A stretch of DNA of 64,000 nucleotides. It comes from an uncultured Opitutia bacterium (GTDB lineage Bacteria > Verrucomicrobiota > Verrucomicrobiia > Opitutales > UBA953). Where the stretch lies: the NCBI GenBank assembly GCA_945957395.1, contig CAMFKE010000008.1:1-64000 (forward strand), written 5' to 3'. Below the pieces are notes generated by a model. That model did not search any database. It was not told the origin of the DNA and saw nothing but the letters and a program-made list of their open reading frames with translations. The translations under genes and the position numbers were made by a program. This document shows positions 4,180-26,692 of this stretch, piece by piece (position 1 is the stretch's first letter; each line of letters begins with the position of its first letter).

Positions 4180-4263
4180 GTTTCAAGTTTCAGGATTTCA
4201 GTTTTCAGCGAACGCAGGCTTCCGCTGACCGCGCATGAAACCTCAAACTTGAAACCGAAAACA
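4180..4263. repeat. Inverted heptad element (GTTTCAA / TGAAACC)
   Basis: The left arm (4180-4207) has four 7-bp units with consensus GTTTCAR. The right arm (4236-4263) has four units with consensus TGAAACC, the reverse complement of the left word. A 28-base unique centre separates them. The element fills the gap between pheA and the MCE gene and ends 11 bases before the MCE start codon, so it must lie in that gene's leader. The same word family recurs at 8115-8191. Confidence 0.88.
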
Positions 4264-22165: not shown

Positions 22166-22270
22166 GGAGGAGGGGGAGGTGAGAGAGGAAAGGGGAAAGA
22201 GGAAAGGGGAGGCGTGATTCGGTGATTCAGTTTTCGGTTTTCGGCGAAGGAGCCGAATCACCGAATCACG
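22166..22270. repeat. Long in-phase heptad tract with inverted arms
   Basis: Fifteen 7-bp units in one phase. The first half is purine units (GGAAAGG, GGAAAGA). The second is TGATTCG and GTGATTC, then AGTTTTC and GGTTTTC, an 8-base turn, then ATCACCG and AATCACG, which are inverse complements of the TGATTCG arm. It fills the gap between the nucleotidyltransferase and the kinase and contains the leader of the kinase gene, where a ribosome-binding site would be expected. Confidence 0.85.
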
Positions 22271-24224: not shown

Positions 24225-24233
24225 AGGGTTCTG

Positions 24234-24268
24234 GAGTTGATGGTTGATAGTTGTGAGTTGATAGGGGG
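24234..24268. repeat. Left heptad arm flanking four-helix-bundle gene 1 (GAGTTGA)
   Basis: Five 7-bp units in phase with consensus GAGTTGA/TAGTTGN lie between the PIG-L start and the stop of the four-helix-bundle gene. The complementary word appears in inverted orientation on the other side of that gene (24653-24687). Confidence 0.85.
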
Positions 24269-24274
24269 GGGGCT

Positions 24275-24640
24275 TCAGTTTTCGAGTTTGCGCAGGAGGC
24301 CGTGGAGCATCTTGCGGATTTCGAGCAATTCGGCGTTGAGCGGGGCGTGGGCCTCATCGGGGATGAATCCCAATCGGCGCGCCAACTCGATTTGCGTCTG
24401 AACTTCGTTGGTGGAACCAAGGGCTGTGCGCAGAAAACGAGGGAAGTCGTTGCTGCCGGACCTGCCCTGGCCTTCGGCGATGTTGGAGGGTATGGAGACG
24501 GCGGCGCGTCGAAGTTGGGAGACCAGTCCGAAGGATTCGGAGGAAGGGAAGGATCCGGTCACCCGGTAGATTTCCACGGTCAGCGTCATGGCTTTTTGCC
24601 AGACGATCAGATCGTGGAAATCCCGGATGCTCGTGTCCAT
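24275..24640 (-). CDS. Four-helix-bundle protein, 23S rRNA IVP/S23 family (copy 1)
   Basis: A 121-residue all-helical protein. RDFHDLIVWQKAM at the N-terminus and LRRAAVSIPSNIAEGQGR near residue 48 are the signatures of the S23/IVP family (TIGR02436). This fold is shared with the Avd accessory protein of diversity-generating retroelements; its biochemical role as a solitary protein is unknown. The start at 24640 (MDTSIRDF) avoids translating the repeat. The gene sits between inverted heptad arms inside an amino-sugar operon and is co-directional with it. No rRNA gene is nearby, so it is not an rRNA insert here. Confidence 0.92.
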   Translation of the reverse strand: MDTSIRDFHDLIVWQKAMTLTVEIYRVTGSFPSSESFGLVSQLRRAAVSIPSNIAEGQGRSGSNDFPRFLRTALGSTNEVQTQIELARRLGFIPDEAHAPLNAELLEIRKMLHGLLRKLEN

Positions 24641-24652
24641 CGGTGGCGCTCC

Positions 24653-24687
24653 TATCAACTTTCAGCTGTCACCTCTCAACTGCGACA
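24653..24687. repeat. Right heptad arm flanking four-helix-bundle gene 1 (TNTCAAC)
   Basis: Five 7-bp units in phase (TATCAAC, TTTCAGC, TGTCACC, TCTCAAC, TGCGACA). The consensus is the reverse complement of the left arm word at 24234-24268. It ends six bases before the stop codon of the ROK kinase gene. Confidence 0.85.
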
Positions 24688-24692
24688 AGCGC

Positions 24693-26099
24693 TTAGCGCG
24701 CGGTCGCCGGCAGCGAGGCGGCGGCGACGGCCTGGCCGTGGCGCTTGGAGGCCTCGTCGGGCACGGAGAGGTTGATCTTGAGCTCGGGGAACTCGACGCG
24801 CAGGACCTCGCGGGCCTTGTCGATGATGATGTCGCCGCCCTTGCCGGAGGTGACGCGGCCCATGATGAGCAGCTCGGAGTAGCTGAAGAAGTCGGCGAAG
24901 TGGGCGAGGGTGTAGCCGAAGGCGATACCGATGGCTTCGTACACCTTCACGGCGCGGGGGTCGCCGGCCTTCATGAGCTTCTGCAGGCCTTCGAGCTGCT
25001 CGGGCAGCTTCATGTCCTTGGGCATGTGGATGCCGGCGAGGGGCATGAGGCGGCCGACGCCCTGCTGGGAGAAGTACTGCACGCCGCAGCCGAGGTCGCC
25101 GGACCATTCGTCGGCGGGGCCGTTGGCGCGGTAGTCGACGGGCACGAAGGCGAGCTCGGAGAGCCAGTTGGTCATGCGGCCTTCGGGGTCCACATAGCCG
25201 GCGGCCACGGAGGTGCCCATGGCGATGCCCAGCACGGCGTTCTTGTTCATCGACATCGAGCCGGCGAGGGCGGTGACGTCGCCGTCGTTGATGACTTCGA
25301 AGGGCACGCCGTATTCCTTGGCGATGTCCAGGAACATGTTCTTCACCTTGGACTCGAACACGGACGGGTCGGTGACGCCGCGGAAGAGCGAGGCGGCGCG
25401 GACCTTGTTGTTGATGTACACGCCGGCGGAGGAGCCGCCGATGGCGTCGAGCTTGCGGCCGGCGGGGATGTGCTTGGCGGCGAGGTCGAGGGAGTGCTTG
25501 ATGCCTTCGTACTGGTAGGCGGGGTCTTTCTGGAAGTACGGGTCCCACTTCACTTCTTCGGAGAAGACGACCTTGCCGTCCACGAGCAGGGCGCACTTGC
25601 GGTCGGAGCCGCCGAGGTCGAAGCCGATGCGCACGCCGTCGAGGTTGCGGCCCAGGGGCAGGTGCGAGGCGGATTCCTTGGGCAGGCCGGCTTCGTCGAC
25701 GACGAGGAACTGGGGTCCGGTGTCGAAGAGCTTGGTGACGAAGGCGTAGTCGAAGGCGCGCTCGCCGGCGGGCGAGTAGATGGTCTTGAGCAGTTCGGCG
25801 ATCTCCGGGGCGTACTTGCCGGAGAGGAAGATCTTGTCGCCGCCGCGGCCCCAGATGAGGAACTTGATGATGCGCTCGACGTAGGTGACGGTGTCCACGC
25901 CGTATTCGGAGGCGAGGGAGAACACCTTGACGCGGTAGACGGAGGCGGTGCCGTCGGGGCGCGAGAGGCCGATGGCCAGCGGGGCGGCGTCGGAGGACTT
26001 CTCGGCGGCCTTGTTGTAGGCGCGGTTCCAGAGGGAGGCGGGGACGAACGCCGTGTCGATTTCGGAGACGAACTTGGGCTTGAGGGTGATCTTGGACAT
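24693..26099 (-). CDS. ROK-like / hexokinase-type sugar kinase
   Basis: A 468-residue actin-fold kinase. VRIGFDLGGSDRKCALLVDG near residue 180 is the phosphate-1 loop, INDGDVTALAGSM near 300 the catalytic Asp region, and LGIAMGTSVAAGYVD the second phosphate loop. It is longer than a typical ROK kinase (about 300) because of a ~175-residue N-terminal extension of unknown function. In this cluster it would phosphorylate the hexosamine or its N-acetyl form before NagB. The start is MSKITLKPKF at 26099. Confidence 0.82.
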   Translation of the reverse strand: MSKITLKPKFVSEIDTAFVPASLWNRAYNKAAEKSSDAAPLAIGLSRPDGTASVYRVKVFSLASEYGVDTVTYVERIIKFLIWGRGGDKIFLSGKYAPEIAELLKTIYSPAGERAFDYAFVTKLFDTGPQFLVVDEAGLPKESASHLPLGRNLDGVRIGFDLGGSDRKCALLVDGKVVFSEEVKWDPYFQKDPAYQYEGIKHSLDLAAKHIPAGRKLDAIGGSSAGVYINNKVRAASLFRGVTDPSVFESKVKNMFLDIAKEYGVPFEVINDGDVTALAGSMSMNKNAVLGIAMGTSVAAGYVDPEGRMTNWLSELAFVPVDYRANGPADEWSGDLGCGVQYFSQQGVGRLMPLAGIHMPKDMKLPEQLEGLQKLMKAGDPRAVKVYEAIGIAFGYTLAHFADFFSYSELLIMGRVTSGKGGDIIIDKAREVLRVEFPELKINLSVPDEASKRHGQAVAAASLPATAR

Positions 26100-26130
26100 G
26101 GGGAGGTGGGGGGGAGGTGTTTTTGAAGTA

Positions 26131-26170
26131 AGGGGCGAAGGGGCTGAGGCACAAAGGCACAGAGGGGCCA
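26131..26170. repeat. Left octad arm flanking four-helix-bundle gene 2
   Basis: Five 8-bp units in phase with consensus AGGNNCNA (for example AGGCACAA and AGGCACAG). The unit length is eight, not seven. The complementary words CTTTGTGC/CTTTGTGG occur in inverted orientation beyond the gene, at 26647-26692. Confidence 0.82.
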
Positions 26171-26193
26171 CCGTTGCTTCCGCTTTTCAGCGG

Positions 26194-26563: not shown

Positions 26564-26692
26564 CGAAGGCTCAAAGGGGCGAAAGGCTCCGGGTTCCAAA
26601 GGTGCCGCACCGATGTCGCGTTTGATTCCGCGGGCGACGGTGCGCTCTTTGTGCCTTTGTGGCCTTTGCCCCTTTGTTCCCCTGCTCTTTTA
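26564..26692. repeat. Right octad arm region flanking four-helix-bundle gene 2
   Basis: Two stretches: 26564-26603, 8-bp units of CNAAGGNN type in direct orientation, and 26645-26692, six 8-bp units around CTTTGTGN/CCTTTGCC in inverted orientation relative to the left arm. The last unit includes the nagB stop codon. A 40-base unique piece separates the two. Confidence 0.78.

Follow-up and report, generated by a model that had tools for sequence, protein, structure and literature searches.

The intervening sequence (IVS) of Coxiella carries an S23p gene, terminal inverted repeats and, beside the open reading frame (ORF), heptameric GACAGAT repeats whose number varies between strains, and it is cut by RNase III (PMC4990558). 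Crystallised S23 proteins are homopentamers (PMC4990558). Heptamer arrays have also been reported as unexplained features of bacterial genomes: GGGAATC in Xanthomonas and GGGGA(T/C)T in Nostoc were described in a paper that cites Calothrix heptanucleotides and finds such arrays generally not associated with mobile elements (PMC4692102), and further arrays are known from Geobacter (PMC2700814). For the TAACTGA arrays of Beggiatoaceae, cyanobacteria and Bacteroidetes, horizontal transfer was suspected, with the remark that "no mechanism is evident" (PMC4679880). In REPIN/RAYT systems (PMC3116915), a few gene copies have flanks whose sequence recurs in many gene-less inverted-repeat hairpins, and gene and repeats co-evolve.

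The window analysed here is a 64,000-nucleotide stretch of contig CAMFKE010000008.1 from an uncultured Opitutia bacterium (genome G000). It contains an S23/IVP gene between two inverted heptad arrays (Table 1), as the first-pass annotation had read from the letters; matches of the encoded protein to PF05635 (135.6 bits, cut-off 33.8) and TIGR02436 (132.5 bits, cut-off 24) confirm the gene, and shuffles confirm its arms. With one mismatch allowed, four units can be chained on each side, and of the five per side counted earlier these four are clear while the fifth is degenerate. The word AGTTGA yields chains of 4 + 4, matched by none of 100 dinucleotide-preserving shuffles (the best reached 2 on the weaker side and 5 in total), and the two flanks are complementary at z = 6.1 (0/200 shuffles). 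Of the neighbours named earlier, PIG-L is borne out by a PF02585 match, whereas the label "ROK" is unconfirmed because the kinase-like protein has no Pfam match at E 0.001. That gene (24693-26171) carries a DLGG motif and is sugar-kinase-like. Within the 468-bp insertion no gene other than S23 is present; the insertion thus carries no transposase and differs in this from an insertion sequence or MITE. Like the 23S rRNA IVSs of Coxiella, Leptospira and others, the element places an S23 ORF between complementary termini that form a stem. IVSs lie in rRNA genes and are excised by RNase III, whereas this element sits between the protein genes of an operon; its stem is a predicted one, and S23 elements here regularly have private heptad arrays in both flanks. 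Consistent with this location outside 23S rRNA, between the PIG-L and kinase-like genes, an Rfam search of the window gave no match.

A second S23 gene, absent from the first-pass annotation, lies 1.9 kb from the first, with the kinase-like gene on one side and a glucosamine-6-phosphate isomerase-like gene (PF01182) on the other. Its arm pair encloses a loop of 482 bp and scores 19.2, compared with 11.1 in shuffles. The genome as a whole has ten PF05635 genes, and our statements about it cover these ten loci and 464 kb of stretches. Short-period arrays flank all or nearly all of the ten genes, with differing units (AGTTGA, CAAAGGC, GAGAAAGT, GCGATAG, GAGGTC, TCTCGC, CGGTTTT, TTTGCAA and GCGGATT). 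Flanks were scored by local alignment, by which 8/10 exceed a complementarity of z > 3; an earlier chained-word score had missed 3/10. The window itself opens with a perfect tandem GTGGAAG array of 7.6 copies (positions 1-53).

Table 1. Elements, arms and arrays discussed in the text. Plain coordinates are positions in the window.
Feature	Position	Strand	Remarks
Whole insertion, 468 bp	24225..24692	-	between the stop of the kinase-like gene and the PIG-L start codon
Heptad array, unit AGTTGA(N)	24234..24265	+	downstream in the gene's sense; 4 chained units; letters GAGTTGATGGTTGATAGTTGTGAGTTGATAGG
S23/IVP four-helix-bundle gene, 121 aa	24275..24640	-	PF05635, TIGR02436
Heptad array, AGTTGA(N) in the gene's sense (TCAACT on +)	24651..24683	-	upstream of the gene; letters CCTATCAACTTTCAGCTGTCACCTCTCAACTGC
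Second S23 element, arm, CAAAGGC-type unit	26130..26165	+	inverted partner 26647-26683
Second S23/IVP gene, 120 aa	26194..26556	-	same operon; PF05635, 131.6 bits; flank z 12.8
Second S23 element, other arm	26647..26683	-	CAAAGGC-type; unit recurs at Nitrospirae, KSB1 and Phycisphaeraceae S23 genes
Gene-less inverted pair, GGTTTTC-type unit	22214..22269	.	loop 8 bp; related to the S23 element at C6:242160
Gene-less inverted pair, unit GTTTCAG	4180..4262	.	loop 35 bp
PDDEXK_3/GxxExxY nuclease-like genes in arms	L309-L358 (relatives); G000:C10:30049-30396 and six own-genome places		

We scored S23 genes well beyond this genome. Within this genome and 57 relatives of the same family or order, 67 of 79 S23 genes exceed z > 3 (median 9.3), compared with 6/298 control ORFs of the same genome (median 0.05) and 0/66 ORFs of S23 size (Fisher 3e-54 for all, 3e-29 for the small ones). 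The threshold is likewise exceeded by 58/79 S23 genes from other phyla (Bacteroidota, Acidobacteriota, Planctomycetota, Chloroflexota, Nitrospirota, Proteobacteria, Patescibacteria, Gemmatimonadota, KSB1, one archaeon and more) and by 25/30 in a third set that partly overlaps the second. The genes falling below it number 12/79, 21/79 and, in the window's own genome, 2/10. The first-pass annotation had proposed checking whether S23 flanks are enriched in inverted arrays and those of random genes are not; in these sets both are the case. In the other-phyla set, an arm score of at least 15 is reached by 62% of same-locus pairs and 1.5% of cross-locus pairs. S23 arms have a median length of 36 bp, the upstream arm is purine-rich in 88% of elements, and self-similarity within arms exceeds expectation 1.63-fold at lag 7, 1.54-fold at lag 14 and 1.40-fold at lag 21, more weakly at 8 and 16. 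On cyanobacterial plasmids, 8/12 S23 genes are positive and most of the others have arrays as well. The two heptad arrays at the S23 gene of the Pseudanabaena plasmid (L257) are very long and direct rather than inverted. In this plasmid and at two further loci (L260, L264) S23 genes lie between cas genes, a placement reported earlier (PMC3936711); S23 genes within cas loci may simply be insertions of S23 elements.

Arms and gene also travel together. In eight family relatives the PIG-L/kinase-like junction is empty, with a gap of at most 18 bp and no S23 gene where the window has 468 bp; these empty sites are judged by gene order between genomes with proteins 55-70% identical, and not between near-identical strains. 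One genome (G043) has two S23 genes at unrelated sites (L039, L067) with 94% protein identity; their DNA homology spans the arms and the gene and ends there, and their left arms differ in length (8 units versus 4). A third copy in the same genome is an internally deleted derivative that retains both arms. The ends of L039 and L067 adjoin a small palindrome, ATCTCGCC...GGCGAGAT, which may be a preferred target or a part of the element. At the atpD-atpC site, two S23 cassettes occur within one genus: between G006 (L088) and G018 (L092), identity is 97% in the flank on either side of the junction and only 59% in the S23 protein, and the units differ on both arms (GAATAGT versus GATAACT). The L088 protein is instead 92% identical to that of L098, with flank identity between these two loci at only 93%. 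In G026 the atpD-atpC junction is empty (45 bp), and the atpA-atpG junction shows a similar pattern (flanks 94%, S23 proteins 62%). At the PIG-L/kinase-like and atpD-atpC junctions, the empty sites are strongly diverged from the filled ones at the exact insertion point, where a target-site duplication would lie. Genomes of genus g3 also contain, in tens of copies per genome, a dispersed repeat of ~44 bp (seen at L092, ~684-865), along with another of 31 bp that also adjoins S23 genes. Judged from these alignments, arms and gene are present or absent, copied and exchanged as one unit, independently of their surroundings, and the mobility of S23 elements is well supported. The earlier picture of a minimal mobile element consisting of inverted arrays plus one gene, proposed together with a comparison with empty sites, gains support from the empty PIG-L/kinase-like and atpD-atpC junctions and from the new-site copy of arms and gene.

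We consider it probable that the window insertion is a foldback mobile element of ~470 bp, in which one S23/IVP gene occupies the loop between two inverted arrays, both built from the same private and degenerate unit of 7 bp, and that its protein, an Avd-like ring, acts on the element's own heptad. The most serious rival makes S23 a passenger: an unrelated host or mobile function would make and spread the arrays, and S23 genes would merely sit in some of the loops. We regard this as unlikely, although most arrays do occur without a gene. The sampled 464 kb of the window's genome hold 31 arrays at lags 7/8 against 2 at control lags, and seven strict inverted pairs whose loops, 8-72 bp long, enclose no gene. 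The sole strict pair with a gene-sized loop in the same 464 kb is the second S23 element, and we found no other gene type inside a strict heptad pair there, which speaks against a passenger role. So does the distribution of arrays among genomes. Genomes with S23 genes have 64 arrays per 744 kb over a background of 12, whereas S23-free genomes, with 5 arrays per 368 kb, stay near their control-lag background of 3.7 (binomial 4e-7 for the difference in density, or 1e-4 without G000). The sampled stretches of four S23-bearing genomes (G013, G002, G006 and G044) contained no arrays, and the link of S23 to arrays is for this reason statistical.

Gene-less arrays resemble the units of the S23 elements in the same genome more closely than they do GC-matched units of foreign S23 elements: 0/2000 random draws equalled the observed match in G000 and in G014, and the corresponding fractions are 0.005 in G018, 0.017 in G022 and 0.059 in G049. 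Gene-less arrays with S23 units are thus scattered through the same genome, and they look like non-autonomous relatives of S23 elements. The idea that arrays are confined to S23 genes was rejected, gene-less pairs being the commoner kind. Some gene-less arrays lie within a coding gene; heptad arrays of several units occur inside an apparent transcription-repair coupling factor (mfd-like) reading frame (L032:9000-10151). The sharing of gene-flank sequence by gene-less inverted repeats, seen in those 0/2000 draws for G000 and G014, is a trait of the REPIN type. The differences from REPIN/RAYT are that a search of the window's own genome for the Y1 (RAYT) transposase, PF01797, gave no match, that S23 arms are tandem heptads and not one palindrome, and that every S23 gene has its own unit, with several S23 genes side by side in a genome.

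Genes of a second family are found within similar arms, which again would suit a passenger role for S23. Inverted arms accompany 23/29 and 11/20 of the PDDEXK_3/GxxExxY (PF13366) genes. Their period, however, is 8-10, peaking at 9 (~1.2-1.3) with nothing at 7, compared with 7 for S23; the period therefore varies with the enclosed protein family, and a unit length that depends on the enclosed family argues against arrays made independently of it.

The sequence of the unit follows the protein as well, a further point against S23 as a mere occupant of loops. Among 114 S23 elements with less than 70% protein identity, same-orientation arm similarity increases with protein identity; none of 500 permutations reaches the observed value, compared with 291/500 for the opposite orientation. 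Restricting the comparison to pairs below 62% identity in which one member or both come from outside the family/order set gives the same result (0/500 versus 401/500 for the opposite orientation). The unit CACAAAGG, for example, is common to S23 proteins 45-67% identical from the window's genome, Nitrospirae, KSB1 and Phycisphaeraceae. At the level of sequence comparison, then, the heptad goes with the enclosed S23 protein. Co-inheritance of gene and arms, as opposed to functional matching, could also account for this match. Without constraint, however, free-floating repeats would be unlikely to last down to ~50% protein identity. No catalytic motif is known in S23, which is the remaining point in favour of a passenger.

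Returning to the foldback element, the structure of the protein suggests how it might act. The AlphaFold2 model of the window S23 (pLDDT 95.3) finds S23 structures as its first matches (2gsc, TM 0.90; 2rld) and aligns with Avd 4dwl at TM ~0.79 (0.74-0.81 for 4dwl and the diversity-generating retroelement (DGR) ribonucleoprotein), so that the Avd fold which the first-pass annotation had ascribed to S23 is upheld by structure comparison. We infer the biochemistry of the element as follows. An Avd-like S23 ring of five would recognise, in RNA or in hairpin (single-stranded) DNA, the heptad of its own element, perhaps with one heptad per subunit, an idea that rests on the typical arm length of ~36 bp, or 5 units. 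The ring would then aid host enzymes in copying or reinserting the hairpin, and slippage between the arms would alter the number of units while keeping both arms alike. In the transcript, the arms would pair into a stem that carries the ORF in its loop, much as those of 23S rRNA IVSs do. We infer a nucleic-acid-handling role for S23, which the earlier annotation had thought conceivable; a role in making or moving the arrays is likely, and S23 may need an additional partner.

In the RNA fold of the window element the arms do pair (z -4.9), and this pairing in the transcript may explain why operons tolerate an S23 insertion. It would equally fit an element that works at the RNA level, with RNase III cutting the arm stem, S23 acting on RNA, and movement being rare and passive through recombination of neighbouring DNA. 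For 113/152 S23 genes a same-strand ORF ends at most 100 bp upstream, and the RNase III-cleaved Coxiella IVS, with its S23p, terminal inverted repeats and heptameric repeats, points the same way (PMC4990558). We nonetheless find this account improbable: the copy at an unrelated site is limited to arms and gene, cassettes are exchanged between 97%-identical flanks, and some gene-less arrays occupy part of a coding gene. The unrelated-site copy and the cassette exchange require movement at the DNA or cDNA level.

A DGR-like retroelement, in which S23 would serve as Avd and a reverse transcriptase would act in trans, seems very improbable. S23 shares with Avd the four-helix bundle and a pentameric relative (4dwl), and it gives weak, sub-threshold bAvd matches: 23.1 and 25.7 bits to PF22296 (cut-off 40) and, for the second S23 gene only, 28.8 to NF033474 (cut-off 80). 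Unlike a DGR, the S23 element has no reverse transcriptase, template or variable repeat, its sequence match stays below the family cut-off, and a search of its genome, 96% complete, for a reverse transcriptase (PF00078, RVT_1) gave no match, so the Avd-like partnership with such an enzyme that the first-pass annotation had evoked found no counterpart there. Least credible of all is an ordinary gene whose arrays arose by chance slippage in tandem or as 7-bp target-site duplications stacked around it. The number of units varies and some transposons do generate 7-bp duplications (considered in PMC4679880), but the shuffles and the control ORFs exclude chance, and arrays at lags 7/8 exceed those at other lags by 31 to 2. 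Stacked duplications are refuted by the orientation of the arms, which are reverse complements; duplications would leave direct repeats on either side.

The foldback reading leaves the window element apart from IVSs by its location, from REPIN/RAYT and insertion sequences or MITEs by the transposase it lacks, and from DGRs by the reverse transcriptase it lacks, and we therefore rate it as a new kind. Its nearest known relative is the IVS. Since the Coxiella IVS combines S23p, inverted termini and variable heptamers, IVSs may be S23 elements that landed in rRNA genes. The reported heptamer arrays resemble those described here in being intergenic 7-bp tandems, partly in inverted pairs and patchy across phyla, and the TAACTGA unit of PMC4679880 is identical to that of S23 elements L092-L094; the reported arrays differ in that PMC4692102, PMC4679880 and PMC2700814 link the arrays to no gene. 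We found no paper in the open-access literature that links S23 genes to heptad arrays in general. A more far-reaching proposal, which we advance tentatively and with some doubt, is that S23 and PDDEXK_3/GxxExxY (period 8-10 bp) proteins write or maintain the arrays and fix the length and sequence of their units; they would then form a transposase-free foldback class across most bacterial phyla, the source of the Xanthomonas, Nostoc, Beggiatoaceae and Geobacter arrays, with rRNA IVSs as special cases.

S23 elements look like tiny mobile elements of a class that is very widespread and as yet undescribed. They may explain the long-puzzling 7-letter repeats of bacterial genomes, giving a possible source for the arrays for which several earlier papers offered no explanation. 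The S23 family, among the commonest small protein families whose function is unknown, thereby acquires a genetic context and a testable role, and a reason is suggested for the unusual positions of some S23 genes, for example between cas genes. The rRNA intervening sequences would become a special case of S23 elements, and if it is true that the protein fixes the repeat unit, these would be a kind of mobile element without known transposase, reverse transcriptase or recombinase.
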